DNA of 21,724 nt, taken from positions 1-21,724 of the IMG/VR virus record IMGVR_UViG_3300047556_000004. The stretch is one strand, 5' to 3'. Source of the DNA: a virus. Shown in pieces: positions 33 through 16,187 of this stretch. Under the pieces are notes generated by a model that saw only the letters and a list, made by a program, of their open reading frames with translations, ran no database searches and had not been told where the DNA came from. Positions within the stretch are counted from its first letter, which is position 1, and each line of letters opens with the position of its first letter. A program made the position numbers and the translations under genes.

Positions 33-335
33 ATGGATGCAAAAATAGTTCGACCGCAAGTTGTAGAGATACAAAAACGATTTTTTGAGGCACTTGATAT
101 GCTGATTAGCTCGGGTAAGATCAGAGGGCTACAAACCTTCTGTGATGAGTACAAGCTGCATAGGCCCAAGTATTCCAACATTAAGAACCACCTATACAAG
201 CCTAGCGATGGTACTGGGTACAAGTTCATAGATATTGATGCCCTCTCGTACCTGGTAGCCGATTACGGCATTTCATCCGACTGGCTGCTGCTCGGGAAAG
301 ATGGGATGTTCAAAACGAAAAAAGGAGGTGTTTAG
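33..335 (+). CDS. Small helix-turn-helix-like phage regulator
   Basis: A 100-residue soluble, basic protein. Residues 14-55 (RRF-type start at QKRFFEALDMLISSGKIRGL, then FCDEYKLHRPKYSNIKNH) look like a helix-turn-helix region, and residues 64-93 (FIDIDALSYLVADYGISSDWLLLGKDGMF) resemble the end of XRE/CI-type repressors of Bacteroidetes phages, where a 'xxWLLxGxGxM' motif follows the DNA-binding helices. Small proteins of this kind are common beside integrase genes in Bacteroidetes prophages. The ATG is chosen because it opens the frame and follows an inverted repeat; there is no Shine-Dalgarno site, as expected for Bacteroidota. The stop codon lies inside a strong terminator, so this is the last gene of its transcript. 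It could be the lysogeny repressor, an antirepressor or an excision factor; DNA binding is likely, its exact role is inference. Confidence 0.7.
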   Translation: MDAKIVRPQVVEIQKRFFEALDMLISSGKIRGLQTFCDEYKLHRPKYSNIKNHLYKPSDGTGYKFIDIDALSYLVADYGISSDWLLLGKDGMFKTKKGGV

Positions 336-862: not shown

Positions 863-2173
863 TTAAATAGGCGCGTTTTTAACGTAATCGAGTACTTTTC
901 GGTTGGCAATATCTAGCATCGCCCAGTCTTTTTCAATGTACACGTCGGCCATCTTCTTACCGCTATCAACATGGTTGAGGGCTAAATCAATATCATCCTT
1001 AGAAATGCTGCACCTATTTCGGGCTATGGTCGCCCACGAGTGCCTAGCGTAGTAGGTAGAGAGCGGTTCGTTAATCTTACAGGCTTTGGCTACGACCTTA
1101 AGCCCCTTGTTCACGTTGGAGGAAAAGGTATGGCTATCGCTATACCGCTGGTAGAAGTTGAACACCCGATCGCCTGTTCTATCCCTATACTTCTGCAGCA
1201 GCTCCATTGCCTCGGGTTCAACCAGTATCGAGATAAACGCCTTGTCCTGTCGTCTACCCTTCGTTTTTTTGCGGTTGTAGTTTATACGTACCATTTCGTT
1301 AGCTTCAACAATACGTTCTACATGGTATAAATCGGCTAAGTTCATGCCGACCATGTAAAAGGATAACATGAAGATATCACGCGAAAAAACAGCCCTTTCT
1401 AGCGATAATTCGCTTTCGTCCAACCTTGCTATTTTCGCTATCTGCTCCGCTGTTAGGTTTCGCTTCTCGTTGTCGGGTCGTTTCTTAAGCTTGTACTTTC
1501 TGAATGGGTAGTGTATAATACGTATCTCGTCCTTATCCTCGTCGTTGTACTCGTTCAATGCTGCATTGAATAGTACCCTCATATCGGTCATGTAGTCGAA
1601 TACGCTCACATCGCTTAAGCCCTTGCTCTTTGTAGTAACCATCTTACCGAGCTGATTCTTGCGCTTAATGGTCCTAGCACCTCTTAGGAAGGTTTCAAAT
1701 TGCTCTAGGAACTTGGCCGTTATTTCTGATATGGCTACCGATTGGCGACCGTTCGCGAAGTCGATTAGAGCGTTAAGCGTTCGGCTCATGTTGCTGGCCG
1801 TGGTGGTTCGCCCCTGTGATCGGAGCCTTTCGATATGCTGCCGAGCGAATGCGATAAAGTCAATGGAGGTGTCTGTTCCTGGTCTGGTTTCCTTAACGAA
1901 GTAGTCGGCTAGCTCCTTAGCTGTGTACATTTCGATTCGTTGACCGAGCTTCTTACTTTTTAAGTCCTCATACTTCGCTATTCGCTTGTTAAGGTCGTTG
2001 ATAATGTATATATCCTTAAGCGCAAAGTTCTTTTTGTTGATTTGCTTGTCTGTGACGTAGTATTCCGTGCTGATATACGAGTACTTTCTTTTCCAGCAAA
2101 CCCGAATGGAAACCCTATAACGGCCATCAGACCGCACCTTGTTCTTGAAAACGCATATCTTAAAAGTTGCCAT
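863..2173 (-). CDS. int: Phage tyrosine integrase
   Basis: A 436-residue site-specific tyrosine recombinase that would integrate and excise the phage at its attachment site. The layout is the usual Bacteroidetes one: an N-terminal arm-binding-like part (about 1-80), a SAM-like core-binding domain (about 85-210) and a C-terminal catalytic domain (about 240-430). Catalytic features visible are the box II arginine R377 in STYYARHSWAT, H401 in LALNHVD and the nucleophile Y412 in ADVYIEKDW; basic residues around 301-311 fit the beta-hairpin lysine. In box I the position after 'VGM' that is normally arginine is N278; R265 lies upstream. Loss of the standard box I arginine is known from the CTnDOT integrase of Bacteroides. 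The length is normal. The start at 2173 begins MATFKICVF, a typical first strand. The gene is read towards the regulator and starts 140 bases from the tRNA-like element, the usual arrangement of int and attP. Confidence 0.93.
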   Translation of the reverse strand: MATFKICVFKNKVRSDGRYRVSIRVCWKRKYSYISTEYYVTDKQINKKNFALKDIYIINDLNKRIAKYEDLKSKKLGQRIEMYTAKELADYFVKETRPGTDTSIDFIAFARQHIERLRSQGRTTTASNMSRTLNALIDFANGRQSVAISEITAKFLEQFETFLRGARTIKRKNQLGKMVTTKSKGLSDVSVFDYMTDMRVLFNAALNEYNDEDKDEIRIIHYPFRKYKLKKRPDNEKRNLTAEQIAKIARLDESELSLERAVFSRDIFMLSFYMVGMNLADLYHVERIVEANEMVRINYNRKKTKGRRQDKAFISILVEPEAMELLQKYRDRTGDRVFNFYQRYSDSHTFSSNVNKGLKVVAKACKINEPLSTYYARHSWATIARNRCSISKDDIDLALNHVDSGKKMADVYIEKDWAMLDIANRKVLDYVKNAPI

Positions 2174-3144: not shown

Positions 3145-3371
3145 ACGTCTTGTTGATTTTTGTTGAACTTCTCAATAACTGTTAGAATGGACGAACCGCC
3201 CACCAATGAGCCAAAAATGTAGTACAGGCTTTCGCTTGCGGTATGCCCGAAAGCCGAAAAGAATGCTAGCACTATAAGCACTAGTAATGAAACGAGCGCA
3301 ATAAATCGCTTGTGCGATACCTCACTACGAGAGGACATCATCTCTTTAAGCCACCTTTTCATACTTTGCAA
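3141..3371 (-). CDS. Holin-like small membrane protein
   Basis: A 76-residue protein with a basic N-terminus (MQSMKRWLKEMMSSRSEVSHKR) and two membrane segments, about residues 23-41 (FIALVSLLVLIVLAFFSAF) and 48-66 (SLYYIFGSLVGGSSILTVI), ending in a polar tail. Two helices, small size and a position directly after the endolysin fit a class II holin, which would permeabilise the inner membrane and release or activate the muramidase. The gene overlaps the end of the endolysin gene by 26 bases and the next gene by four. The start could also be the second methionine at 3362. Function is inferred from topology and context; the four-helix protein at 4396-4818 is a rival candidate for the holin. Confidence 0.6.
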   Translation of the reverse strand: MQSMKRWLKEMMSSRSEVSHKRFIALVSLLVLIVLAFFSAFGHTASESLYYIFGSLVGGSSILTVIEKFNKNQQDV

Positions 3372-3912
3372 ATGCTTTTGATAGTGAAATATCGTAAGGA
3401 TCGCGCCCTATTCGTTGGGCTAGCTCCTTATACTTAGCCCCATTGTAAATAGAAGCTACCATGTGCCAATCACGAACGTTGATAGCCTTAAGCAGTCGCT
3501 TATCGGTTTCGATAAACTTCACAATTTGGTAGATTTGCCTATCTAATCCCTTTTTGGCATCATCCCACATTGCACCTACAGAAGCATATCCTAGTCTTTC
3601 CCAATGGTAGCCCATAACCTGGCCAAGACCAATAGAGGTGCTTTCCATAGCTGAATTTGGGTCAATAGCAAAAGCATCATTAAAGGCTTTCCATTCAGCT
3701 GCTTGCACATCAACCTTGTTAAGCGACCACAAGCCCGAAGGTGCGTATGGTTCACGCTTTCTAAAGTGAGCTGGCTCAAACTGAATAATTATCTTACCAG
3801 TAACAGGGTTGAACCCCTTACCGCCTGTTTCCACCTCGATAAACGCCAAAAGAGCAGCAGGGTTTATGCTACCATGCTGCTGTTTTACCAAATCTGATAT
3901 TAGCTTATCCAT
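3346..3912 (-). CDS. Endolysin, N-acetylmuramidase (DUF3380-type)
   Basis: A 188-residue protein covering one catalytic domain of the phage N-acetylmuramidase family. The start of the domain reads LLAFIEVETGGKGF, where E28 of E-T-G-G matches the conserved 'VESGG' glutamate of the family, followed by IIIQFEPAHFRKR (about 41-53), the equivalent of the conserved 'iLFExHxF' block. The SIGLGQVMGYHW segment (about 93-104) is typical of lysozyme-like folds. It has no signal peptide, so it would need a holin to reach the wall, where it cleaves glycan strands. A perfect Shine-Dalgarno site (AAGGAGG, 6 bases before ATG) supports the start at 3912. The gene overlaps its upstream neighbour by 8 bases and the holin-like gene by 26. 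Confidence 0.88.
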   Translation of the reverse strand: MDKLISDLVKQQHGSINPAALLAFIEVETGGKGFNPVTGKIIIQFEPAHFRKREPYAPSGLWSLNKVDVQAAEWKAFNDAFAIDPNSAMESTSIGLGQVMGYHWERLGYASVGAMWDDAKKGLDRQIYQIVKFIETDKRLLKAINVRDWHMVASIYNGAKYKELAQRIGRDPYDISLSKAFAKYEKVA

Positions 3913-4294
3913 GCATTGCCTCCTTTTTTACGCTCAGCACGTCGAGCTTAAGCTCAATAGGGCATTGCTCCCTATCGCATTGAACCCGACATCCCACCGC
4001 TCGCTTGTAGATGTTAAGGTCACGCTCAATACCAATCTTTTCGGCATCGGAAACACGAAGCGAAGTCTTGAGCGTGTCAATCTCCTTTCGCATATCGTTA
4101 ACCTCCTTCCGCATCTTTTCCTTATCCTCCTGCAGCACCTCGATAGTGTTGGTTAAGGCTTCGATGTCAATAGACTTGGTTTCAGCTTGCTTCCTCCGCT
4201 TATTTTCTTTGAAGTAGAGAAGAGAAACGATAATAGCACTTGTGCCACCAAGAGCACCTATTACCGCGATTAGTGTTGTTGCTATTCCTGTCAT
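3905..4294 (-). CDS. Membrane-anchored coiled-coil protein with C-terminal cysteine cluster
   Basis: A 129-residue protein: one membrane segment (about residues 5-27), a basic stop (KENKRRK), a charged coiled coil (about 40-95) and a short end with C102-x3-C106-x4-C111 (VGCRVQCDREQCPIELKL). Short cysteine-ended coiled-coil membrane proteins like this are frequent in lysis regions of Bacteroides phages, but I know of no tested function. The three cysteines could bind a metal or form disulfides. The start is fixed by a strong Shine-Dalgarno site (AAGGAGGT, 5 bases before the ATG). Its first 95 bases overlap the preceding gene in another frame. It may be an i-spanin, an antiholin or a scaffold for the endolysin; I cannot decide. 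Confidence 0.7.
   Translation of the reverse strand: MTGIATTLIAVIGALGGTSAIIVSLLYFKENKRRKQAETKSIDIEALTNTIEVLQEDKEKMRKEVNDMRKEIDTLKTSLRVSDAEKIGIERDLNIYKRAVGCRVQCDREQCPIELKLDVLSVKKEAMHG
3919..3925 (-). promoter_or_regulatory. Strong Shine-Dalgarno site of the endolysin gene
   Basis: AAGGAGG, 6 bases before the ATG at 3912. Most other genes of the window have no such site. Confidence 0.85.
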
Positions 4295-4448
4295 GTGTTA
4301 CCTCCTTTTCAATTTCTACGAATTGAGTTAGGGCTAGAATGATCTTGTCGTACTGTTCAGCTGTTAGGTTATCGCATAGGCCGTTTTCGATGCCCTTAAT
4401 CAGCATCTTTAAGGTTTTCACAAGCTTTTTTTTGGTTAAAGCATCCAT
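4200..4448 (-). CDS. Small helical protein of unknown function, overlapping both neighbours
   Basis: An 82-residue frame. The first 52 residues (MDALTKKKLVKTLKMLIKGI, then ENGLCDNLTAEQYDKIILALTQFVEIEKEVTH) look like a normal, helical, basic-to-acidic protein. The last 30 (from DRNSNNTN) lie entirely over the membrane segment of the next gene in another frame and have an odd composition (WWHKCYY), as expected for an out-of-frame tail. It overlaps the upstream gene by 53 bases and the downstream one by 95. It lacks a strong ribosome binding site. It may be a real small lysis-cassette protein whose stop was lost, extending it over its neighbour. No function recognised. Confidence 0.55.
   Translation of the reverse strand: MDALTKKKLVKTLKMLIKGIENGLCDNLTAEQYDKIILALTQFVEIEKEVTHDRNSNNTNRGNRCSWWHKCYYRFSSLLQRK
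4300..4307 (-). promoter_or_regulatory. Strong Shine-Dalgarno site of the coiled-coil membrane protein gene
   Basis: AAGGAGGT, 5 bases before the ATG at 4294, eight bases complementary to the usual 16S rRNA end. It lies inside the upstream overlapping gene. Confidence 0.85.
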
Positions 4449-4818
4449 ACTTCTGATAGATTAACCATGAAACAAAAAGCACGACCACAGTAGTCGCACC
4501 GATTAGGTAGGCGTAGTTGCCTACATTAACACCGTAATTAGTTAATGCTTCTAGGAGAAGTCCGAAGGACATGTTTATAATCAAAAGCCTGTGCCAAAAG
4601 CAAAATCTTAGCTTTGATGAGAGCCAGTATAGGATAGCATTGTATAGAAAGCTTTGTCCTATAATGGGGTAAACGTACTTTGCGATATCCTCACGAACGC
4701 CCACTATGTAAAGCGACATAGCAAGCAGAATGTACAGGTTTATTGCTACAGGTAGCAGCTTAACAACCTGAATTGCTAGCATATCGGTTACACGTTTTAG
4801 GCGTTTCTTAGTACTCAT
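4396..4818 (-). CDS. Four-helix phage membrane protein (alternative holin)
   Basis: A 140-residue hydrophobic protein with about four membrane segments: residues 17-39 (VVKLLPVAINLYILLAMSLYI), 46-66 (KYVYPIIGQSFLYNAILYWL), 76-94 (HRLLIINMSFGLLLEALTN) and 99-120 (GNYAYLIGATTVVVLFVSWL). A basic N-terminus (MSTKKRLKR) and a polar tail follow the inside-positive rule. The segment WLSSKLRFCFWHRLLIIN resembles a block shared by membrane proteins of Bacteroides phages, from memory only. Its place near the head of the lysis cassette makes a holin or holin regulator likely. Its ATG overlaps the stop of the 38-residue gene (ATGA) and has a good Shine-Dalgarno site; the end overlaps the next gene by 53 bases across an A8 run. 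Confidence 0.68.
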   Translation of the reverse strand: MSTKKRLKRVTDMLAIQVVKLLPVAINLYILLAMSLYIVGVREDIAKYVYPIIGQSFLYNAILYWLSSKLRFCFWHRLLIINMSFGLLLEALTNYGVNVGNYAYLIGATTVVVLFVSWLIYQKYGCFNQKKACENLKDAD

Positions 4819-4931
4819 TGCTTGCCTCCTGTACCTCCACCAGTGCGAGGAGGCTCTTCGCCTGTTTCTTCTCCATCTGCCGTACCTTCACCCTCTGGTG
4901 CGGTTGGCAATTCTTCGTCTAGTTCTGCCAT
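4815..4931 (-). CDS. Tiny acidic, Gly/Pro-rich protein at the head of the lysis cassette
   Basis: A 38-residue protein, MAELDEELPTAPEGEGTADG followed by EETGEEPPRTGGGTGGKQ. It is strongly acidic with a glycine-rich end, and has no membrane segment. Four lines of support: it starts with ATG right after the intergenic region, its stop overlaps the next start as ATGA (translational coupling), its composition is protein-like and disordered, and an operator-like palindrome lies 38 bases upstream. Part of the glycine-rich end is also the Shine-Dalgarno site of the next gene (GGAGG-type sequences twice), so this end may be kept for RNA rather than protein reasons. No function recognised. Confidence 0.65.
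   Translation of the reverse strand: MAELDEELPTAPEGEGTADGEETGEEPPRTGGGTGGKQ
4825..4830 (-). promoter_or_regulatory. Strong Shine-Dalgarno site of the four-helix membrane protein gene
   Basis: AGGAGG, 6 bases before the ATG at 4818, inside the 38-residue gene. A second GGAGG lies further upstream in the same gene. Confidence 0.75.
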
Positions 4932-4968: not shown

Positions 4969-4985
4969 TGTATCAGAGTGATACA
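4969..4985. promoter_or_regulatory. 17-bp palindrome TGTATCA-N3-TGATACA, copy 1 (operator candidate)
   Basis: Arms of seven perfect base pairs around GAG. The site lies 38 bases before the ATG of the first lysis-cassette gene, in the region between the divergent lysis operon and lipoprotein gene. The same 14 arm bases occur at 12639-12655, also just upstream of a - strand gene. It is probably the binding site of a dimeric phage or host regulator. Confidence 0.65.
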
Positions 4986-5107
4986 TTTGATATCAATAAT
5001 ACGAGTAAACTGCCTATGTATAAACTCAATTGCATATCTTTTTTATAAGTCGTGCATATCTCTATAATGCACTAGTGTTAATCTTCGCTAATATTGCGGT
5101 GTTGCTG

Positions 5108-5139
5108 TTGCATTTAACATTTATACACCTGTATATTTG
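5108..5139 (+). promoter_or_regulatory. Bacteroidetes-type promoter of the lipoprotein gene
   Basis: TTG (5108-5110), 21 bases, then TATATTTG (5132-5139), an exact match to the Bacteroidetes -7 box TAnnTTTG with an acceptable -33 spacing. It would start transcription near 5146, about 40 bases before the ATG. The primary-sigma type suggests expression in the lysogen. Confidence 0.65.
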
Positions 5140-5183
5140 TATTACAGTTTACTTAAACAAAACATTTTTAAACCATTTAAGCC

Positions 5184-5753
5184 ATGAAAAAAATTGCATT
5201 TTTGTTAGTTGTTCTAGGCATTATAACAATGTCCTGCCAAAAGGATGAGGTTAAGCCCGACTACCAACCTCACAAAACGTACATCAACGGTGTGGCAGTT
5301 GCCAACCATTCAGCTACCAAGTCACAGGTTCTACGTGATTTGAAGTACATCGTTAAGAATGCCAACGTTATTCTATCCTATAACGATAGCATTAACCCTA
5401 ACAATCAGATAATCGGTTTTCTGTTTGATAACAACAGAGATACGGTTAACCTTAGATTTGTGTACGATGAGTTTGCCATACTTCAAAGCGATGGAAAGAT
5501 TAATAATGCACTTCTAGCCAATAGGGATATGGTTTATGTCGTTAGAACTTATAGAGGTGAGTTTGAGCTTCCTGGTATTGACACCATAGCCTACACCCCT
5601 AATCGTATCTTAAGACGTGCCGAAACGTTGGTAAGAGCAGCTGTTAAGGCGAACGATTGGGCCACATGCTACGCGGTTATGGACACTACATTTAAATTCT
5701 ACCCAATAACAGGCGAACAGTGGCGAGAATTGAAGCGAAAAGGCATAGAGTAG
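5184..5753 (+). CDS. Phage-encoded lipoprotein (probable lysogenic-conversion gene)
   Basis: A 189-residue protein with a lipoprotein signal peptide: MKKIAFLLVVLGIITMSCQK, lipobox T-M-S-C with the lipidated cysteine C18, then QKDE. The acidic residues after the cysteine do not exclude surface export in Bacteroidota, where such signals are charged. The mature part (about 19-189) is a mixed, globular protein without a domain I recognise. The gene is alone on the + strand between the tail and lysis genes, which run the other way. It has its own host-type promoter, no Shine-Dalgarno site and its own terminator, the hallmarks of a 'moron' expressed in the prophage. Likely roles are superinfection exclusion or change of the host surface; an outer-membrane spanin partner is another possibility. 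Function is inference. Confidence 0.8.
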   Translation: MKKIAFLLVVLGIITMSCQKDEVKPDYQPHKTYINGVAVANHSATKSQVLRDLKYIVKNANVILSYNDSINPNNQIIGFLFDNNRDTVNLRFVYDEFAILQSDGKINNALLANRDMVYVVRTYRGEFELPGIDTIAYTPNRILRRAETLVRAAVKANDWATCYAVMDTTFKFYPITGEQWRELKRKGIE

Positions 5754-5771
5754 TATAATATACCACATAAC

Positions 5772-5802
5772 AAAAAAGGCTGCAAAATCGCAGCCTTTTT
5801 TT
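5772..5802. terminator. Bidirectional terminator between lipoprotein and tail-tip genes
   Basis: AAAAAAGGCTGC (5772-5783) pairs with GCAGCCTTTTTT (5790-5801) around a 6-base loop. It serves two convergent genes: the lipoprotein gene ends 18 bases before it on the + strand, and the stop codon of the tail gene lies at its right edge on the - strand. Confidence 0.9.
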
Positions 5803-8800
5803 ATTGGTTGTTACCTGTTATCTCAAACTCAAAGCTTGCGTCCATAGCGGTAGTTCCATTCCCTAAAGAAACATCAACATAGGTGCTATTTTTGGCTGTT
5901 ACCATTGCTACAACAAAGTTGCTTCCGCTTTTTGTTTTAGCACTTGCAACAGCACCTTTAGGAGCAAACCCAAAGTTATGGTAGATACGGTAAATGCCAG
6001 TTCCGACTTTTGACACCGTAGCAGATGAGCTAGTTATGCCCCATATAGAGCCAAACGAAGGAGTAGCACTTGCCAAAACATCCCCAGAAAGAAGCACACC
6101 AGGCTTATTCCAAACTCCGCTACTAGATACCTTCTCAACAGACTTGTAAACACCACCTTCCATTCCAAAGAACGAGTAGTTGGTAGCGTTTCCAATTACC
6201 CCTACGCCATTCTTTCCGAACTCTGTACGTTGAGTTGAACCATCAAAAAAGACGGTGGTAGTAGATGCACCTACGGACGAATCTAGCGAAGTAGAGACCC
6301 AATTTTGGTGAGTGTAAACTAGCTTGATCTTGTAGGTTCCTGCTGCTACTGTTACCTGCTTGTTTAAGTTTACGGTAGTTACTTCCGTATTTCCTATACA
6401 CCTTGCAGTAGCAGAGCCTAGAAAAATATCCGAAACGTTATTGTTTAGGTAAACATCCACCCTCGCCATCCCTTGTGATGTACCTGGTTGTTCTGCATAG
6501 GCTTGAACAATTAGCTGACAGGTAAATGTAAGCAACGAGTTATTGTTGTTTACCACAATTTGATTAGGCAGTAGCCTTGTTACCGTACTAGTAGTGCTGT
6601 TGCTATATGAATCTGCAGCATTGCTAACGCTCGTATTCTGTGTTGAGTTGGCAATGGCACTAAGCGTAGTAATATCGTTCCTAGTCATTACTACCCTGTT
6701 AACTCCGTTGGCATCCTTAATGCAAATCGAACCATCGGTATTAATCCAGAAGTCGCCAAATTTCGCCTCACCGTTAAACCACTCGATGATAGTAGCTAGC
6801 TTGGATATTGCTTGTGCATAAGTGCCACCAGTCCAACGGCTAGGAAGAGGGTTTCCATTACCATCAACAGGAATACCGCTCATACCAGCAATACCACCCT
6901 CACCGAGCTGCACGATCTGTGTTTCTACCACACCTCCGCTTATAACCGTTCTACCCTCCGTTCTCGCTTTCGCAAAGGTAGCATCGGCTTGAGCTGCTGC
7001 TATGGCTGCTGCGGTAACTTCTGGCGCAACCGTAAAATCAGTTGCCCTATTGCCCTTTTCAAGCTGAAAATTGGTAAAGCTAAAAGCCGAATTTTGAGGC
7101 CCATAAAAGTATAGCATTACCACCCCAGATACGTTACATGTGAACGTAGTACCATTAGGTGATACTATCGGCACCTCCTGCACGTTAACATAACCAGAGT
7201 TACGTAGTGTAAGCGTTGTTGGTGTTGCTCCGCTTATCTGCTTCCAGCTTAAAGTGTACTGCTGCCCTACAATAAGCTCCATAGTCAGCTGATGCCACGG
7301 CCCTAAGTTGTAACCTCCATAAACATCCGTAGTGCCACTGTATGTGGTTGCCCCATTACTTATAAGGTTTCTACCTCCTACCTGTACAGCATCTACCTTT
7401 ACCCCAGCCAACCGATCTAGCTCCTGTTGAATAGCCTTATTTGCATTAGACAGGGCAGTTTGATAGCTTTTGTACGCGGACGAATACGTAGCAAATTTGG
7501 CATCTACATCAGCCTTTTCGGCTGGCGTTGTTTGACCATCCGCAATAGCTGTGTTGATGCTATTCTGTAGGTTAGTTTTAGCATCTATTAGCGTTATCTT
7601 AGCGTTAAGCAAATCGGTTTTAGCCGAACCAGTTAGATAGCTATTAGCATACACTACGTTGTAGTCGTTAATGGCTCTGTCGTAGTCAATGTTTATCTGC
7701 TTATTGAGCGTATCAATAGCAGCAGCTTCGGCTTGGCTAACTACACCATCCTTGAATGCTCCATCAACGTAGGTATTGAGTGAACTAACTGAGCTGTTAG
7801 CTGTGTTGGCAGAGCTTTGAGCATTCAAACCAGCTTGCTTTGCATCGGCAATAGAAAGGTTGATATCTACTTGTGAAAGCCTAAAGGTACTTGCCTTGTT
7901 TCCTTCCTCAAGCATTACCATGTCTAGCCACAAAACACCAGTAGGAACTCCAAACATAACAAAGTTTCGGGCATCGCCTATGGTATAGGTAAATACAAAC
8001 CTAGTCCAAGCGTCAGCCTGTAGCGTATAGTGTTTCTCGGCATTCCATCCCCAATTACTTCTAACGCTGGCTATTGTAAGATCGCATACCTGATCGGCCT
8101 TTGCGTAGCCAGATATCGTGAATGTTTCCCCAACCGTTCTATCTTGGGTAAATACCGTGACATAGTTGGAGCTACCATTAATGTTGGTACCTTTTAGACA
8201 AGCAGAACCTTCATAGTATGTTGATGTGTCACGAGCAATTGAACCAGTATTTGTATATCCGAAATTGTAAAGCCGACCACCATCCTCAAAGTTGCCATTT
8301 TCGAGAAGGTTAACACCTCCAATTTGCAGGTTATTAACAGCCGTATCGTCGGTGTATTTGGTTGCTTTTTCCCAATGAGCAATATTAAAAGCAGCTCCTG
8401 CAAGCTTTTGCGTTTTACACTTAAGCAAATCGTTAACATAGCTACCATAAGTAGCATTAGCCCATAAGTCTCCCACATCGTACGCTTCCAAATCTGTCGG
8501 CTGTGATACGAATACACGTCTTTTACCGTCTGCTGTATCTTGAGCCTTAGCTGCATCAGCAAGAGCTTTAGTTACATCGGTATCGGATATTCTAGTCCAT
8601 GAGTAGGTAGTATTTACCTTTTGGAATCTATAAGAATATCCTTTTGAGGTCCAATAGAACAAATCGCCTAAATGGATATCCCTAACAGCCTCTGAAACCC
8701 AATTCGATGCAGGAACGTTGGATAGGTTAGGCTCATAGTCGAAAAACCATGAGGTAATGTTACCATCAATCTGACTTTGCAACCCTGCAATTGTGGTTGG

Positions 8801-11011
8801 AAGTACGCTGTTGATGTAGTTGTTTGCTTCATTAGCAGCTGCTTGCGCTGCTGCTGCTGCCGAACTTGCGCTACTAGCCGTAGATTGTGCCGAATCAGCT
8901 GCTGTTTTAGCCTCTGTTACCTTTGTTTGTACGTTTTCGCCATTCGCAAAGGTGAAGGTACCGTAGAAGGTACGAGTGTCTAAGTTTAAAACTATTTCCC
9001 CTTGCGTATTGGTGAAGGTTCCTGTTTTGATGCTGTCACCAGTAATGAGCGTATAGCCCTTAGTAGTAGTGAATATTCTAGCACCATCAATAACTGACGA
9101 AAGAATACCAACAGGGAACATGTAGTACCCTGCCACATCCTCTACACCTACCTTAGTAGCCGATAGGATGTAGGTAGCCGTAGCAGCCGACTTGCTAGCC
9201 TTAATGTATAGCGTGTATGGGCTTGTAGGCGTTAGCCCTGTTGCGTTAAATGCTGAAATAGTCCAAGTGCCATGGTTGTTAACAGGATAGTAGTTGTGAG
9301 CTACCACGCTCTCGCTAACGGTGAATGCATTGGCATCACCGTTAACGTTGCCTGTCATTACCGCTCCGCTAAGCTCCAATTGCGCTGCTGGGTCGTTACC
9401 TATGAGTGCTGCTTCTGCCTTAACGGTTTCGATCATGGTTACAATCTCGGAAGTAGCCTTGTAGTTGCGCCTAGCTTTTGCAGGGTCGGCTATCTTGTTC
9501 ATCCGTACCACGTTGTTAATCGCCTTAACGTCCGTAATGGTACGAATGATGGTGCTAACCTCCACGGGTATCTCGGAAACAGTTAGCGAGTAGATATACT
9601 CGTCTAGCAGGTTTCTGGTGAACCCTGTAATTAGTATCGACTTATCTACATCAAGATCGGTGTCCTTAATTGGCACCAAGTCACCAACCCAAAATATATT
9701 GCCTTGTACATCGTTGGTAAAACGCTTCAAGAACATCCTGTCAATGCTAAGCGAGTACTGAATTTGAGGCTTGGAATACTTGGTTAAGTACTCCTGCCCC
9801 TTAGTGCTTACCTCGCTTTCTGCTGCATCTATGTAGGTTTGTGGCTGGTATATGTCGATTAGTACGTACTTGTCACCCACAGCCAGCTGAAAGGCTAGCA
9901 AAGTTTCGGAAGGAAACGAGTAGCCGTTTGAATCGGTCTGCTTAATGATGGTAAACGTCTTGGCAGCATGGTCGTAATTGCTGATCTCGAACTCGTAACC
10001 TGCGAGCTTACCAGTGTTGAAATGCACCTTTGCTGGTTGACCAGGTAGTAGGTACTTGGTTTCACCATTGGTGTCTCGCTCGTTCAAGTCGAACGGCATG
10101 GCTGCATCAATGAACTGATACACGTTCGAGCCAACCGAGCTAACCTGTCCTACTCGGTGAGGGTAAACATCCTCGAATACCTTGGTGCTTTCCCATACAC
10201 CATATTTAGCAATGGAAGCAGCATCTTCAAGGTAGCTTACTGATTTCGCCTTAGTGGGTAAGCAAATCCTATCGGCTCGATACTTAGACGTGTTGATGTT
10301 TTTTGAACCTCCATACACGAATAATCGATTGATGATGTTATTGCTGCTCACCTTTTCGCGCGAAAGCTCGTAAAGCCCCTTACCCATACCATACTCGAAG
10401 GTATGTCCGTACACCGAACCAGAAGCCCCTACGTTAATGGTTCTGTTTCCATTGGAATCAATCGCTATCCTAAAGTCGGTGTCGTAGTTATCTGCAGAGC
10501 ATAGCGATTGCAGCACCGATAGGCAGGTATCAGAATCGCTAAATGTTAGCGTTTTTGTCTCGGTATTTTGGGGATATGTGCCAATAGCCCACCTATTCGG
10601 GAATATGCGGTTAGCGTTGGCAATTAGCACGTCCAAAAAGGTCTTAATGTCGCCTGTTAACGACATTCCGCTCAAGTCCTGTATGATGTTACCAGTCGTG
10701 TCGAGATTTACGTTATACTGACAGCGTAGGAGGTCATACTGAACCCCCTCGAACTGCATATCATACGAGAATCTATTCTCGGATAGCTTTCGCTCCTTTG
10801 CTGGTAGGTTCAGCGTGTAGTCACGCCCAAAAACAGTAATCTTATCGCCAACAAAAAGGCTAAGCTTGTTGGCCGATTCTACCGAAATGTCAACCGTATC
10901 TACACCAAGCTTTTCAACTCGCTGCTCGGCTCTGGTAATCCTGCTTACATTTTCCTTAGATTGCAGCTTCAACCTGCTGCCATCCAAATGAGTTACTATA
11001 ATTTGTTCCAT
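5801..11011 (-). CDS. Large tail-tip/fibre protein with carbohydrate-binding-like modules
   Basis: A 1736-residue protein directly after the Dit gene (16-base overlap), the place of the tail-associated (Tal) or receptor-binding protein. Residues about 1-490 are beta-rich and resemble the gp27/Tal hub that closes the tail tube (FGRDYTLNLPAKERKLSENR near the start, VGDLVPIKD near 450). About 690-750 is an alanine-rich coiled coil. About 752-895 holds a module with SWFFDYEP and GDLFYWTSKGYSYRF, seen in fibres of other phages. Two modules begin with G-G-x-N-L-(L/I)-x-N-G: about 895-1050 and 1208-1330; both end with a hydrophobic 'xLExGNxAxxF' strand and look like carbohydrate-binding jelly rolls. 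A helical spacer (1080-1205) separates them. The end (1335-1736) is beta-rich with no lysin motif recognised. It probably reads host surface glycans. Confidence 0.85.
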   Translation of the reverse strand: MEQIIVTHLDGSRLKLQSKENVSRITRAEQRVEKLGVDTVDISVESANKLSLFVGDKITVFGRDYTLNLPAKERKLSENRFSYDMQFEGVQYDLLRCQYNVNLDTTGNIIQDLSGMSLTGDIKTFLDVLIANANRIFPNRWAIGTYPQNTETKTLTFSDSDTCLSVLQSLCSADNYDTDFRIAIDSNGNRTINVGASGSVYGHTFEYGMGKGLYELSREKVSSNNIINRLFVYGGSKNINTSKYRADRICLPTKAKSVSYLEDAASIAKYGVWESTKVFEDVYPHRVGQVSSVGSNVYQFIDAAMPFDLNERDTNGETKYLLPGQPAKVHFNTGKLAGYEFEISNYDHAAKTFTIIKQTDSNGYSFPSETLLAFQLAVGDKYVLIDIYQPQTYIDAAESEVSTKGQEYLTKYSKPQIQYSLSIDRMFLKRFTNDVQGNIFWVGDLVPIKDTDLDVDKSILITGFTRNLLDEYIYSLTVSEIPVEVSTIIRTITDVKAINNVVRMNKIADPAKARRNYKATSEIVTMIETVKAEAALIGNDPAAQLELSGAVMTGNVNGDANAFTVSESVVAHNYYPVNNHGTWTISAFNATGLTPTSPYTLYIKASKSAATATYILSATKVGVEDVAGYYMFPVGILSSVIDGARIFTTTKGYTLITGDSIKTGTFTNTQGEIVLNLDTRTFYGTFTFANGENVQTKVTEAKTAADSAQSTASSASSAAAAAQAAANEANNYINSVLPTTIAGLQSQIDGNITSWFFDYEPNLSNVPASNWVSEAVRDIHLGDLFYWTSKGYSYRFQKVNTTYSWTRISDTDVTKALADAAKAQDTADGKRRVFVSQPTDLEAYDVGDLWANATYGSYVNDLLKCKTQKLAGAAFNIAHWEKATKYTDDTAVNNLQIGGVNLLENGNFEDGGRLYNFGYTNTGSIARDTSTYYEGSACLKGTNINGSSNYVTVFTQDRTVGETFTISGYAKADQVCDLTIASVRSNWGWNAEKHYTLQADAWTRFVFTYTIGDARNFVMFGVPTGVLWLDMVMLEEGNKASTFRLSQVDINLSIADAKQAGLNAQSSANTANSSVSSLNTYVDGAFKDGVVSQAEAAAIDTLNKQINIDYDRAINDYNVVYANSYLTGSAKTDLLNAKITLIDAKTNLQNSINTAIADGQTTPAEKADVDAKFATYSSAYKSYQTALSNANKAIQQELDRLAGVKVDAVQVGGRNLISNGATTYSGTTDVYGGYNLGPWHQLTMELIVGQQYTLSWKQISGATPTTLTLRNSGYVNVQEVPIVSPNGTTFTCNVSGVVMLYFYGPQNSAFSFTNFQLEKGNRATDFTVAPEVTAAAIAAAQADATFAKARTEGRTVISGGVVETQIVQLGEGGIAGMSGIPVDGNGNPLPSRWTGGTYAQAISKLATIIEWFNGEAKFGDFWINTDGSICIKDANGVNRVVMTRNDITTLSAIANSTQNTSVSNAADSYSNSTTSTVTRLLPNQIVVNNNNSLLTFTCQLIVQAYAEQPGTSQGMARVDVYLNNNVSDIFLGSATARCIGNTEVTTVNLNKQVTVAAGTYKIKLVYTHQNWVSTSLDSSVGASTTTVFFDGSTQRTEFGKNGVGVIGNATNYSFFGMEGGVYKSVEKVSSSGVWNKPGVLLSGDVLASATPSFGSIWGITSSSATVSKVGTGIYRIYHNFGFAPKGAVASAKTKSGSNFVVAMVTAKNSTYVDVSLGNGTTAMDASFEFEITGNNQ

Positions 11012-12108
11012 ACGATAGCTCCTGTTGTAGTTAACGATACGATCTCGTCAATGCATCCACTCACCACTATGTAGAAAGTGCCATTCGTAGCGTAGTTGTG
11101 TGTTATGGTTTGACTACCCAGCACATCGTAGGTATGAGTTCCATCACCCCAATAGATGTTGAGCAGCTTAGGCGTGTTAACCGTAATGCTTACGGTCTTA
11201 TCGGCATCGCCTGTTCGTGTGTACTTAATCACTTTTTTGATTGGTTCCGGCTCTCTTAATTTTAGCTCGAATTCGGCTACCATCTTGCTATTATTCCACA
11301 CCTTCTTAGGGTCGATGTCGTCAACTAGGTAAACTTCGAAAGGAAGCGGTGCAATGTCCTCGGGTGCTGGTGTCCATGGTGTAGCCGTTGAACCATATTC
11401 AAGCTTGAATGCATCAAGGAATATGACATCACTGCTAGTGTAAGTTTCTGCTAATGCTATAACTACCTTATCGTAGTCACCAATTATTGGATGATATTCT
11501 ATTCTATTCCACACCCCAGGTGATAAAGTAACAAGCTTTGGGTTTGCATCGTTCCATGTACCAGTAGGATTTTGATATACCGATATAGTTTTTTGAGAAT
11601 CAGAATAGACGTAAAATGATAGGGTGCTAGTCTTATCAATAACCCTATTTAGTACTAGCACGTTAGCAGGGCTAAAGTTAGTAGCCTTTGCTGAACGATT
11701 ACCTATATAAGCCTTTTCCTGCGAATTGACAAGAGATAGGCTATTTGTTCCTGCTATAAGCTCTAGCCTATTTTCGAAGCTAGAATCTATCAGTAAGTTT
11801 CGACCTGCATCCTCAACGCTCATAGACACCTCTAAACGCTTGCTGTTTGGGGTGTCAAATAGGGCCGTAAAAGCGTTAAACTTCTGTATGAAGTCGCCAT
11901 AGTTGTTAGCTTCCAAAAAGCAGCTTAAAACAATATCCCTAGCCTCGAAGTAACGCTTCGAAAGGTCAACCGCTAAGCCGTTTTGTGTCTCCCAATTCTG
12001 GGAAATGGGGTTTTTAGGCTTTGGCTTGGAGGTTATACCCTTGCTGCTTGCAACCCTAACTCCGAATTTCTTAAAATCGTTGCCATCGAGCTTATATATC
12101 ACATCCAT
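10996..12108 (-). CDS. Distal tail protein (Dit) with inserted binding module and PKD-like end
   Basis: A 370-residue protein. Residues 1-98 look like a Dit N-terminal belt domain of Bacteroidetes phages (MDVIYKLDGNDFKKFGVRVA, then FEARDIVLSCFLEANNYGDFI). At 101-252 the domain is interrupted by a module starting A-G-R-N-L-L-I-D-S-S-F-E and ending KLEYGSTATPWTPAPED, the same type as the two modules in the next gene; the Dit part resumes at about 253 (LPFEVYLVDDIDPKKVW). Residues 291-370 contain WGDG and HNYATNGTFYIVVSG, the signature of a PKD-like domain. Dit forms the hexameric ring joining tail tube and tip; extra binding modules make it an 'evolved Dit' as described in phages of lactic acid bacteria. 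The gene starts one base after the stop of its upstream neighbour. Confidence 0.82.
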   Translation of the reverse strand: MDVIYKLDGNDFKKFGVRVASSKGITSKPKPKNPISQNWETQNGLAVDLSKRYFEARDIVLSCFLEANNYGDFIQKFNAFTALFDTPNSKRLEVSMSVEDAGRNLLIDSSFENRLELIAGTNSLSLVNSQEKAYIGNRSAKATNFSPANVLVLNRVIDKTSTLSFYVYSDSQKTISVYQNPTGTWNDANPKLVTLSPGVWNRIEYHPIIGDYDKVVIALAETYTSSDVIFLDAFKLEYGSTATPWTPAPEDIAPLPFEVYLVDDIDPKKVWNNSKMVAEFELKLREPEPIKKVIKYTRTGDADKTVSITVNTPKLLNIYWGDGTHTYDVLGSQTITHNYATNGTFYIVVSGCIDEIVSLTTTGAIVWNKL

Positions 12109-12109
12109 G

Positions 12110-12625
12110 TTAGTAGGTTTTTTTGTTCTTTTCGATCTCCTTAACTACCGCATTGCCGTACTTCCTAGCGAATACTTCCGCACCGATGTACCTATTCACA
12201 CATACCTTAGAGCTATCCGTTGCCGTTACTCGAAGCTTGGCATTGTCGAAAATATCCACCATCACAAAGGCGTTATCCTTTACAACTAGCACTATTTCAG
12301 AATCATGCTTAATGAATAGCTGTGAGGTTTCATAACCGCTAACCTCAATAGCTCCCTTGCACTTACCCAGCGCAACCAGCTTTTTAGGGTTTTTCGCTAG
12401 TATCTCGTTATCTAGGTAGATGTGGTGCTTCTCCATCACGCCTACGAAGTGCTTGCGTATGTAGTCAAGTGAGGGGTACTCGTTTGACAGGCAGAAGTCA
12501 ATACCCTTGAGGTATAGACCGATAAGTTCCTCCTTATCGGTCATATCTTCCATTTGGTAGTACCACTCTTGACAAATGCCCTTTTTATCCGCTTGCTTAG
12601 CAAGCTCCTTTCCTAGTTTTGCCAT
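12110..12625 (-). CDS. Tail-region protein of unknown function with repeated beta strands
   Basis: A 171-residue protein from the ATG at 12625; a GTG 21 bases further upstream would add seven residues but lies inside the palindrome and is less likely. Residues 1-70 are helical (MAKLGKELAKQADKKGICQE, CLSNEYPSLDYIRKHF). Residues about 75-160 are a series of short beta strands with a regular pattern (NPKKLVALGKCKGAIEVSG, then SQLFIKHDSEIVLVVKDNAF, VMVDIFDNAKLRVTATDSSK), suggesting a small right-handed beta helix or similar repeat fold. I recall similar proteins in Bacteroides phages between tape measure and Dit, with no known role. Unlike its neighbours it is preceded by a regulatory-looking palindrome and a 40-base gap, so it may be transcribed or controlled separately. 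Confidence 0.7.
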   Translation of the reverse strand: MAKLGKELAKQADKKGICQEWYYQMEDMTDKEELIGLYLKGIDFCLSNEYPSLDYIRKHFVGVMEKHHIYLDNEILAKNPKKLVALGKCKGAIEVSGYETSQLFIKHDSEIVLVVKDNAFVMVDIFDNAKLRVTATDSSKVCVNRYIGAEVFARKYGNAVVKEIEKNKKTY

Positions 12626-12638
12626 AGCTTTTAGAATG

Positions 12639-12655
12639 TGTATCACTGTGATACA
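12639..12655. promoter_or_regulatory. 17-bp palindrome TGTATCA-N3-TGATACA, copy 2 (operator candidate)
   Basis: Here the centre CTG makes the repeat almost complete: TGTATCAC, one base, GTGATACA. It lies 14 bases before the ATG at 12625 and 11 bases after the end of the tape measure gene, in the only real gap inside the tail operon. Its arms are identical to those of the site at 4969-4985. Confidence 0.65.
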
Positions 12656-12665
12656 ATATTAAGCA

Positions 12666-15600
12666 TTATAAGCCTAAAGCGCGCTGGTTATCGCTTGAAA
12701 GTTTCGCAATGTTCTTGTCGATGTTTTCCAAGAATCGGTTAAACCTCGTGTTGTCGGCAATAATGTATAGCTGCGTGATAGCCTGGTTAAGCAGGTTATT
12801 CGCATTCTGCTGGTTAACACGAATGGCGTTAATGTAGCCAGCAAGCAGCGTAGCGGTTTCCTCCGTAACTGTCGAAGATATGCTACCAGATAGCCCTGTT
12901 TTAGTTCCCGAAACAAGCTTTTGCATGTCAGCAGGAAGCTGGTTTAAAATGCCCACAATGCTACCGCTAAGGTTCTTTAGCTCCGCACCCATGTTAGCAG
13001 CATCGTTCATCACATTCTCGAACCCTGCAAAGTTCCCATCCTTATCCACCCACTTCGATAGGTACTTGTTCAGAACTGCACCGACAGGCTCTTCCACCAA
13101 GCGTTGAACTAGCATCTTTCGGATAACATCGCCTACAATATCGTCCACCTTCTTACCCCATGCAGCAGCAGCGTTTTCGCCAGCTGCAAAGGCATCTATG
13201 ATAGCATTGCCGAGCTGCCCTGCAATGTCCTTAACCGTACCGCCTAGAATATCTTCGGCCATACCGCTAACTGTGTCCTCGATTTGGGTATTGATGCTCC
13301 TAATGGCCTCTTCGTACTCCTTAATCTTGCCTTTGTCGGTTTTCTTTTTTCGTTCCTCGTCGCGAATCATCGCTTGATATTCTTCCTGCTGCTTCTTAAG
13401 GTTACGAATTGAGGCTGCTTGGTTATCGTAGATAGCCGTGCCTAACGCCTTGTCGATAGCTCGCTCTAGCTCCTGGTACTTAATCTTAAGCTGGTCAACG
13501 CTCGCTTGATGCCTCTTTATAGAGCGGTCAATGCTCCTGTCGTGTGCCCTAGAAAAAGCCCCAATAGCGTTAGAAATAAGCTGAATTGAACCCTGCACAA
13601 TCCCCATTACGTTACCTGTAGCTATGGAGCTTGCCAAGCTGCTAGCATCGTTCATAAGGTTGGATATGTCGCCCATTATAGCAGCGGTCTCTTCATCCAT
13701 CGCAATACCCATATTTTGGATAGAGCCTATAACGGTATCGAAGCCACCCTTCAAAGCATCTATCGAACCAGCAGCGGAGCTGAACATCTTTTTTAAGGCT
13801 TCCTTTTTCCCTGCTTCATCGGTTGCTTCATCGTACTGCTTGAAAGCATCCTTGAGGGCAGCAAAAGGGTTCTTTTGCTGTATCGTTTGGTCCACCTTAT
13901 CCATCTGGTCGCGGATAGCCTTAAGCTGGTCTGGTGGTAGCTTCATCTTCTTCCATTCAGCCTCTAGCTTGTTGCGTATCTTTATCATCTGTGATACGCT
14001 CATGGTGTCGAGGTTGCCGAACAGCTGCTGCCAGTCCTGCGACTTCATAAGATCGTTGGTGGCTGCATCCGACTTTTCAGCATCGCGCTTTTTCTCAAGG
14101 TTCTTGGCGTTGTCCTCCATTCCAGCATCTCGCATCGCCTTGATTTGAGGTGCATACTCGTAGTCAATGGCATCCATCTTTTGAAGCGTGGTCATTGAGT
14201 TTTCGTAGGCTTTCTTGAATGTTTCTACGTCCTTCTCAATAGCTTTCATTGCCTCTTCCATTGCTCGCTCGTCGTCCTCCTGCATCTGCTTGAGCATCTT
14301 TTCCATGCTGCTTTCTTGCTGCTTCTGCAGGTCGGCATCCATATCGGCATTGATCTTGAAGAGCATGTCCTCGGGTGTCTTACCGCTACCGCCTGTTTTT
14401 TTGCCCCTAATTCGGTTGATCTCTGCTTCGCCTTTAGCTATCTTATCGAGTAGCTTTTGGCGATCGCTAGCAAAGGTTTTTGAGTTAGTATCGAGCTTAT
14501 CCAAAGCATCCTTAGCAGCCTTAACTTCTTGCTCCCAATATTCCGCATTGATAATAGCTTTAGCAGCCTCCTTGCCCTTACCGCTGTTATCCTTGCTCAT
14601 AATCTCCATCTGGGCTTTCAGCTTATTCTGCAGCTCCGTTTCAGCCTTAATTACATCGTCGTTATTAACCTTGCTATCTCGTGTTACCCTTACGGCACTG
14701 CTAGCAGCACCACCAGCAGCGTTCCCAAGAGCCGAATTAAACCCAGCTGCCAGGTATTCCCTTGTTTTTTGCCATCCTGTTAGGTTAAGCTCACCATCCT
14801 TAGCTGCTTGCATACGCTTGATGCTGTCGGTCATTTCAGCCTCCAAAGCTTGCATCTTAATCTTTTTTTCTAACGACTTAACATACTCGTCGATGGCTGC
14901 TTTTCCCTCGGCTGTTTTCATACTTTCGAGGGTGAGGTTTTTAAGAGTGCCATCGCTAAGCTTAATTAGCTCCTTAAGCTTCTCATTGCGGTACTCTCGG
15001 CTTAAATTTTCGTTATTGATGATTGAGGTAAGCGAGGTAACAGTTGACTTCTCGGCATTGATCTTACTGTTTGCCTCGTCCATTTTCTTGTTATAGCTTT
15101 CCATAGCTACCTCAGCTGCTGTTTGAGCCGTAGCAACCTTATAAAGCACAACGGCTAACCCTGCTAGCAAGGCTGCTGCAATGGCATAAGGATTGCTTAG
15201 TATAGCCTTATTCAGCGATTTTTGCGCTGCTTCCTCAACAGCCATTACCGCTGCCCTTGCCTTGTGTGCTTTGGTGAGTGGTCCTAAAGCTGCATTAAGC
15301 TCTAGGTACAACGTAGCCGACTTACTAGCTGCAACCGCTCTTTCTGCAGCAGCAGTAGCAATAAGAACGGCCTTGTAAGCTCCGTATGTGGCTACAATAG
15401 GCATTAGCACGTTAAGAATGTCCTCGTAGTGTTCTATAGCCGACGTTGCGCCTGTAATAATGCCAGAAATTAAGCCATCGTTGCTTTGTCCGATCTTGTT
15501 TAAAGCTCTATCCCAAGCATCCTGCATGTTGCTGATTTGACCTGTAATGGTTTTGCTCTGCGTCTCCATAAGGTTGAAAAACATGCCTCCCTCGTTGGTA

Positions 15601-16187
15601 AGGTTCTGAATGACTTTCTGAACTTCTGGAAAACCAACCTTACCATTTTCGACCATTTTGGATATTTCGCTATCGGCCACGCCCATAACCTTAGCCAGCT
15701 CAGATACGATAGGAATTCCAGCTTCCATGAATTGGCGCATGTCGTCACCCATTAGGCGACCTTTAGCCTTTACTTGACCATAGACAAGTATTAGCCTATC
15801 CAAAGGAACACCAACACCAGAGGCCACATTACCTAGCCTTATCAGCGTTTCGTTCACCTCATCCGCTGCGACTTGGTACGCTAGAAGCTGCTTTGCACCG
15901 CTCGCTACCTCTGTAAGCGTAAATGGTGTTTTCGCTGCTGTTTCTACGATTTGGCCCATAAGGATATCGGACTTCGCCTTGCTTCCCAGCATGGTCGTAA
16001 AGGCTACGTCAAGCTGCTGGAATTCTCCGCGAACCCTCACCATTTGGCTAACCAGTAGTCCAAATCCTGTAATGCTTGCAATGCCTCCCAAGTTCCGCTT
16101 AAAGCTATCTATGGCACTATCCATTTTTTGCCCTTCCGAAACAACATGGTTGGACATACCGCTAACCTGGTTACGAACAAAGGTCAT
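12666..16187 (-). CDS. Tail tape measure protein
   Basis: A frame of 1173 codons. Residues about 35-240 match the tape measure N-terminal domain of phages (VRGEFQQLDVAFTTMLGSKA, ETAAKTPFTLTEVASGAKQL, RLMGDDMRQFMEAGIPIVSE). Two membrane-like segments follow, about 258-282 and 329-353 (LSNPYAIAAALLAGLAVVLY), which may take part in DNA entry. The rest is mostly charged coiled coil (about 360-1173) with another mild hydrophobic stretch near 880-905. It sets tail length; by the usual 1.5 angstrom per residue this predicts a tail near 175 nm. The ATG at 16187 overlaps the stop of a 22-codon frame that looks like the true N-terminus (see 16184-16252), so about 20 residues may be missing here. Confidence 0.93.
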   Translation of the reverse strand: MTFVRNQVSGMSNHVVSEGQKMDSAIDSFKRNLGGIASITGFGLLVSQMVRVRGEFQQLDVAFTTMLGSKAKSDILMGQIVETAAKTPFTLTEVASGAKQLLAYQVAADEVNETLIRLGNVASGVGVPLDRLILVYGQVKAKGRLMGDDMRQFMEAGIPIVSELAKVMGVADSEISKMVENGKVGFPEVQKVIQNLTNEGGMFFNLMETQSKTITGQISNMQDAWDRALNKIGQSNDGLISGIITGATSAIEHYEDILNVLMPIVATYGAYKAVLIATAAAERAVAASKSATLYLELNAALGPLTKAHKARAAVMAVEEAAQKSLNKAILSNPYAIAAALLAGLAVVLYKVATAQTAAEVAMESYNKKMDEANSKINAEKSTVTSLTSIINNENLSREYRNEKLKELIKLSDGTLKNLTLESMKTAEGKAAIDEYVKSLEKKIKMQALEAEMTDSIKRMQAAKDGELNLTGWQKTREYLAAGFNSALGNAAGGAASSAVRVTRDSKVNNDDVIKAETELQNKLKAQMEIMSKDNSGKGKEAAKAIINAEYWEQEVKAAKDALDKLDTNSKTFASDRQKLLDKIAKGEAEINRIRGKKTGGSGKTPEDMLFKINADMDADLQKQQESSMEKMLKQMQEDDERAMEEAMKAIEKDVETFKKAYENSMTTLQKMDAIDYEYAPQIKAMRDAGMEDNAKNLEKKRDAEKSDAATNDLMKSQDWQQLFGNLDTMSVSQMIKIRNKLEAEWKKMKLPPDQLKAIRDQMDKVDQTIQQKNPFAALKDAFKQYDEATDEAGKKEALKKMFSSAAGSIDALKGGFDTVIGSIQNMGIAMDEETAAIMGDISNLMNDASSLASSIATGNVMGIVQGSIQLISNAIGAFSRAHDRSIDRSIKRHQASVDQLKIKYQELERAIDKALGTAIYDNQAASIRNLKKQQEEYQAMIRDEERKKKTDKGKIKEYEEAIRSINTQIEDTVSGMAEDILGGTVKDIAGQLGNAIIDAFAAGENAAAAWGKKVDDIVGDVIRKMLVQRLVEEPVGAVLNKYLSKWVDKDGNFAGFENVMNDAANMGAELKNLSGSIVGILNQLPADMQKLVSGTKTGLSGSISSTVTEETATLLAGYINAIRVNQQNANNLLNQAITQLYIIADNTRFNRFLENIDKNIAKLSSDNQRALGL

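Follow-up and report, generated by a model that had tools for sequence, protein, structure and literature searches.

Dispersed palindromes in a temperate Bacteroidales phage are probable operators of a small phage-encoded repressor

The two palindromes of the form TGTATCA-N3-TGATACA found in a 21.7-kb virus record (the window, i.e., the whole stretch analyzed here) are probably operators of a phage repressor which uses dispersed 17-bp dyads, and the likeliest binder is phrog_9710, a protein encoded at the left end of the same window. The best reading of the sequences is that of dispersed, partly stoperator-like operators of a prophage repressor, whose binding, dimerization, repression and roadblock we infer from the comparison of related phages. 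A shared dimeric operator had already been proposed in a sequence-only reading of the window and is supported by conservation at orthologous places, intergenic placement, coupling to the -7 box of promoters and symmetric, lineage-specific changes in both arms.

Two palindromes in the window

By comparison with the related phage G007 the window represents about half of the genome of a temperate Bacteroidales siphophage and extends from the phrog_9710 and integrase genes at the left end into the scaffold gene at the right (Table 1). Just past the integrase gene there is a tRNA-like match (2313-2386; Rfam 31 bits, gathering 29), a possible attachment site. The 140-aa membrane protein of the lysis cassette gave no family match in Pfam or among the PHROG profiles, and its relatives were too few to be of use in the comparison; for the 38-aa ORF no Pfam match was found. 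The phrog_10156 gene is kept directly after the tape-measure gene in the related phages.

Table 1. Features of the window bearing on the two palindromes
Feature	Position	Strand	Basis
Candidate repressor, 100 aa, phrog_9710 family	33..335	+	phrog_9710 E=1.2e-22
Tyrosine integrase of a temperate phage, lysogeny end	863..2173	-	Pfam Phage_int_SAM_5 E=1e-15, Arm-DNA-bind_5
Muramidase, lysis cassette	3346-3912		neighbour of 140-aa membrane protein
Holin/spanin-like gene, lysis cassette	3905-4294		neighbour of 140-aa membrane protein
140-aa membrane protein, likely holin-like, lysis cassette	4396..4818	-	ORF with hydrophobic stretches
38-aa acidic ORF, first gene past site 1	4815..4931	-	read from sequence
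Site 1, putative operator copy TGTATCA-GAG-TGATACA	4969..4985	.	exact match
171-aa phrog_10156 protein, gene past site 2	12110..12625	-	phrog_10156 E=1.9e-51
Site 2, putative operator copy TGTATCA-CTG-TGATACA	12639..12655	.	exact match; tape-measure/phrog_10156 gap
Tail tape measure protein, upstream of site 2	12666..16187	-	phrog_9959 E=5e-205

The pattern matches the window exactly at two places only, 4969-4985 (TGTATCAGAGTGATACA, site 1) and 12639-12655 (TGTATCACTGTGATACA, site 2), and both sites are intergenic, just as the sequence-only reading had described them. When the window was shuffled with its dinucleotides preserved, a perfect dyad pair with identical arms (arms of 7, spacer 0-10) arose in 1 of 200 shuffles. 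No further copy was found in the whole window with up to three mismatches allowed. The earlier statement that there is no third copy thus holds within the window but not for the phage as a whole, since the window is about half a genome and the relatives carry about 6-9 copies. Neither long repeats suggestive of site-specific inversion nor RNA families were found at the window sites.

Site 1 ends 37 nt ahead of the ATG (4931) of the 38-aa ORF with which the lysis cassette begins, in a gap wider than the 20-40-nt gaps of the operons. A near copy, CGTATCACTGTAGTACA, is present in G007 at 29354, 45 nt ahead of the holin-like gene. Site 2 is located in a gap of 40 nt, 10 nt past the stop of the tape-measure gene (12666) and 13 nt ahead of the ATG of the phrog_10156 gene (12625). 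A consensus -7 box was seen beside neither of the two window sites, and site 2, lying in a short gap a few nucleotides before a start codon and lacking a promoter box, belongs to the stoperator-like class described below.

Between the tail and the lysis genes a 189-aa lipoprotein-like gene (5184-5753, plus strand) stands alone. It has a TATATTTG box of its own (5132-5139) in front and a terminator hairpin behind (5772-5801), and the unit (5132-5801) resembles a moron that is expressed from the prophage.

Site set in related phages

A search for the motif in related phages showed that sites recur at orthologous places, among them the gap between the tape-measure and phrog_10156 genes. In this gap the relatives have TGTTTCACTATAAAACA, TGTTTTACTATAAAACA, TGTATCACTATAATACT, TGTATCAATTTAATACA and other sequences, near-palindromes among them; the gap is filled also in relatives whose proteins are about 50% identical, and there the two arms have changed in concert. 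The exact window variant TGTATCACTGTGATACA is also found in G007 (51.8 kb). The exact window pattern was in addition scanned over viral contigs, where chance matches are mixed in among the matches listed.

In the longer related records a phage has about 6-9 sites, whose variant is specific to the lineage (TGTnTYA, TGTATYA, CGTATTA, TGTCTTA or CGCATTA). In the 43 phage records of at least 30 kb, in which 9.7% of the DNA is intergenic, the relaxed motif HGTNTYANNNTRANACD gave 158 intergenic vs 21 coding matches, the genes being called as simple ATG ORFs so that a few of the coding sites lie in spurious ORFs. The reversed and the arm-swapped control patterns gave 1/4 and 1/7 matches (intergenic/coding) in the same records. 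Random scatter inside genes, considered earlier, is not what is found. Moreover, in a dyad search blind to the motif, the motif came out as the top or a near-top recurrent intergenic dyad in most of the long phage records with sites. The phage records are all related and many are fragments, and the sites and distances counted here are accordingly non-independent.

Typically a stop codon is followed after 2-10 nt by the site and after another 3-10 nt by an ATG, or else the site stands ahead of an operon. Sites recur at the promoter of the operon that precedes terminase, in the gaps between terminase and portal and between tape measure and phrog_10156, and at the promoter of a tail gene of 91 aa; before the scaffold/capsid operon there is a recurring divergent pair of sites with a distance of about 110-150 bp (126 in the majority). 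A site at the holin-like gene is found in G007. The Porphyromonas gingivalis phage005b carries three perfect copies ahead of three late operons, and in G411 a perfect site precedes the terminase operon while the terminase/portal and CI/Cro gaps hold near sites. In the CI/Cro immunity region the sites are mostly missing. Earlier the two window sites had been read as a pair by which lysis and one tail gene are controlled together. The shared operator stands, but this reading is too narrow: the two sites are no special pair and belong to a larger dispersed set that spans early and late operons.

Two further elements were observed in these phages. The operator before the terminase operon (G002 13759, G004 19034, G001 18209 and orthologues) is part of an extended dyad of 25-33 bp followed by T-rich DNA and may double as a terminator. 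In the CI/Cro intergenic regions of G001, G004, G007 and G012 an element close to GCAAATAGCAAAATTACGTCA is conserved ahead of the Cro-like gene, the CI proteins of these phages being different. Beside the paired sites, a gene of 231 aa was considered as the repressor gene and rejected, being a scaffold-like gene before capsid.

Position of the sites relative to promoters

Promoters of Bacteroides contain the Bacteroidetes -7 box TAnnTTTG. The late-promoter sites lie just upstream of this box or overlap it. Measured from the start of the site toward the next gene, the box starts at +18 to +27 in 57 sites and at -13 to -6 in 18 sites, and it is nearly absent at other offsets. With the box downstream of the site start the bound protein is placed in the -33/-7 spacer, and with the box upstream it is placed over the -7/start region. 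Either geometry is that of a repressor, the latter being unfit for activation.

Among 160 sites there are 75 that stand at a TAnnTTTG box, 36 boxless ones in short gaps and 49 unclassified ones. The boxless gap sites are found a few nucleotides, mostly 3-10, ahead of the start codon. Those with a CTA center point along the direction of transcription in 25 of 27 cases, which come from orthologous places and are non-independent, whereas promoter sites occur in both orientations. Because of their promoter location about half of all sites do not need a roadblock.

We propose that a small phage repressor silences the virus in its host. In the prophage, a phrog_9710 dimer would sit across early and late promoters and block initiation from the -33/-7 spacer or from the -7/start region. 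In the 20-40-nt operon gaps, a few nucleotides before the start codon, the dimer might stop transcribing RNA polymerase in the manner of the L5 stoperators.

The phrog_9710 protein as candidate repressor

The sequence-only reading had placed the regulator outside the window. This is probably wrong, as the best candidate is the first gene of Table 1. The phrog_9710 gene adjoins the integrase gene in the window and in G007, G001, G004, G012, G418 and phage005b, i.e., it is part of the lysogeny region. Pfam and NCBIfam gave no match over the cut-off for the protein, and a weak match to HTH_19 is under it. An AF2 model (pLDDT 80.6) has five helices, one of them at residues 44-55. The nearest fold in the PDB is the CI protein of phage 186 (prob 0.97 but weak, E=0.19), the other top matches are XRE proteins, and all matches have E>=0.001. 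The homologue in phage005b (PP754928) is annotated as "repressor protein"; this phage was recovered from culture as nuclease-protected DNA (PMC10367356).

The operator variants covary with residues 42-52 of phrog_9710. The predicted recognition helix of the window protein comprises approximately residues 43-52 (HRPKYSNIKN), and helices of the window type, LHRPKYSN, pair with operators [TCA]GTATYA. LNRTKYS[RC] pairs with TGTnTYA, L[ST]xx[KR]YRE with CGTATTA (G428 mixed T/C), LNR[PV]KYA[ST] with TGTCTTA and LHPTRYRE with CGCATTA. A scan of 10-residue windows along phrog_9710 gave the best correlation for the one starting at residue 43, inside the predicted HTH and overlapping the helix at 44-55. 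In partial Mantel tests with 29 phages the correlation of the operator with the helix given the rest of the protein was 0.43 (p=0.0002), and that with the rest given the helix was 0.04; these tests remove phylogeny incompletely, since the distances of the Cro-like and GerE proteins also correlate with the operators.

Other possible binders

That the Cro-like protein of the early lytic operon (72-90 aa) binds the sites as a genome-wide regulator is unlikely, even though it is present in nearly all phages with sites. Its distances correlate with the operator distances (r=0.64, against 0.70 for phrog_9710 and 0.67 for GerE), and in the scan of its sequence the window over the possible recognition helix ranks second. 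However, given phrog_9710 the partial correlation drops to 0.12. G411, with a perfect site and two near ones at orthologous places, lacks the protein, and at least eight phages (G436, G437, G443, G444, G447, G448, G430 and G423) have the protein but no such site set.

We regard it as quite improbable that the GerE/LuxR-like protein encoded in the same cassette binds the sites as activator boxes of late promoters. Dyad binding is typical of GerE-family proteins, two of the G007 sites lie about 16-18 nt upstream of the -7 box and GerE co-occurs with most of the phages having sites, but it is missing from phage005b, G421 and G411, which all have sites. Activation also fits poorly with the many sites that overlap or follow the -7 box or that stand 3-10 nt before a start codon without a promoter. 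The cassette as a whole was rejected as the source of the binder: G411 does carry sites, and cro+gerE+ phages without phrog_9710 lack them. Many such phages have no site set, several of these records ending short on the lysogeny side.

The cassette itself, composed of a Cro-like gene (KGWSQV...VEPKVSEAKAIE) and a small GerE/LuxR-like gene (L157:4948-5735 and relatives), has been conserved across dozens of Bacteroidales phage records, some of them without the operator. The small GerE/LuxR-like protein has an NELSAWWF motif and a hydrophobic tail.

The sequence-only reading had left open a phage or a host regulator. A phage regulator is supported, and it is very improbable that the phage exploits sites of a host regulator such as SOS/LexA or a Crp-like protein. 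The palindromic form would suit such a regulator, and the LexA boxes of Bacteroidetes are likewise dyads; the published ones, CTAA-N5-TTAG and GGA-N5-TCC (PMC8565304), are however unlike the operator. The operator variant differs between phage lineages, and in 393 Bacteroidales genomes the commonest variant has 18 exact matches, 10 of which are inside two prophages; host DNA other than the prophages is nearly devoid of the motif. An RNA-level element (hairpin, processing or terminator signal) in place of a DNA operator is hardly credible either: the extended terminase-operon dyad with its T-rich DNA, the transcription of the gap sites and the 25:2 bias of the CTA-centered ones would agree with it, but site positions 4 and 14 are often unpaired (A-A, G-A, A-C), many sites upstream of the promoter box are outside the transcript and promoter-class sites are found in both orientations.

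Comparison with known systems

The operators of phages lambda and 186 are located at a few immunity promoters. The proposed system would share with lambda and 186 CI the combination of dyad operators with an HTH repressor, 186 CI being the best, albeit weak, fold match of phrog_9710; its operators are, however, dispersed and mostly absent from the CI/Cro region. In the Streptomyces phage phiC31 the conserved inverted repeats (CIRs), about 17 bp long, are present in multiple copies, mostly intergenic, and are bound by the c repressor. The sites described here resemble the CIRs in length, symmetry, copy number, mostly intergenic location and a phage repressor as the likely binder, but repressor size and host differ.

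In Cluster A mycobacteriophages with L5-type stoperators a single phage repressor, Rep, has many sites across the genome, some of them outside promoters. The L5 sites are asymmetric, 13 bp long and mostly of one orientation, number up to 30 and are bound by a monomeric two-domain repressor (PMC6550527, PMC9283540). The present sites are like these in being dispersed (about 6-9 per phage in the relatives, two in the half-genome window), in having promoter and non-promoter classes and in a lineage-specific consensus which tracks the repressor, here the candidate phrog_9710. As to orientation, the CTA-centered gap sites run 25:2 along transcription (with orthologues non-independent), promoter sites being mixed. 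Unlike the asymmetric monomer site of L5, the site here is a 17-bp dyad with symmetric changes in both arms. There are also fewer sites, the candidate is a 100-aa protein, putatively XRE/CI-like, the hosts are Bacteroidales and the roadblock is one that we infer.

The open-access literature searched yielded no report of sites like these in phages of Bacteroidota, and genome-wide repressor sites resembling mycobacterial stoperators look new for Bacteroidales phages. The stoperator idea, reported in the same literature only for phages of actinobacteria, would thereby extend to another phylum. Going further, we suggest with a little less than even confidence that temperate Bacteroides, Alistipes and Porphyromonas phages have in common a stoperator-like network of symmetric 17-bp dyads and the 100-aa single-domain phrog_9710 repressor. 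Prophages would be silenced by promoter occlusion together with roadblocks inside operons, and operator and helix would co-evolve into separate immunity groups. Prophages of Bacteroidales are common in gut and mouth. For their silencing and mutual immunity the present analysis picks out, from among hypothetical proteins, a gene that is likely to encode the repressor, and it offers a small set of sites; were the operator code of such a repressor readable, one could predict immunity groups from sequence. As a separate observation, a distant carrier of phrog_9710, Bacteroides phage Versailles, has in place of the operator about nine clustered copies of a TTTTGC-N4-GCAAAA dyad near the integrase (L443:1626-1946, 33312).
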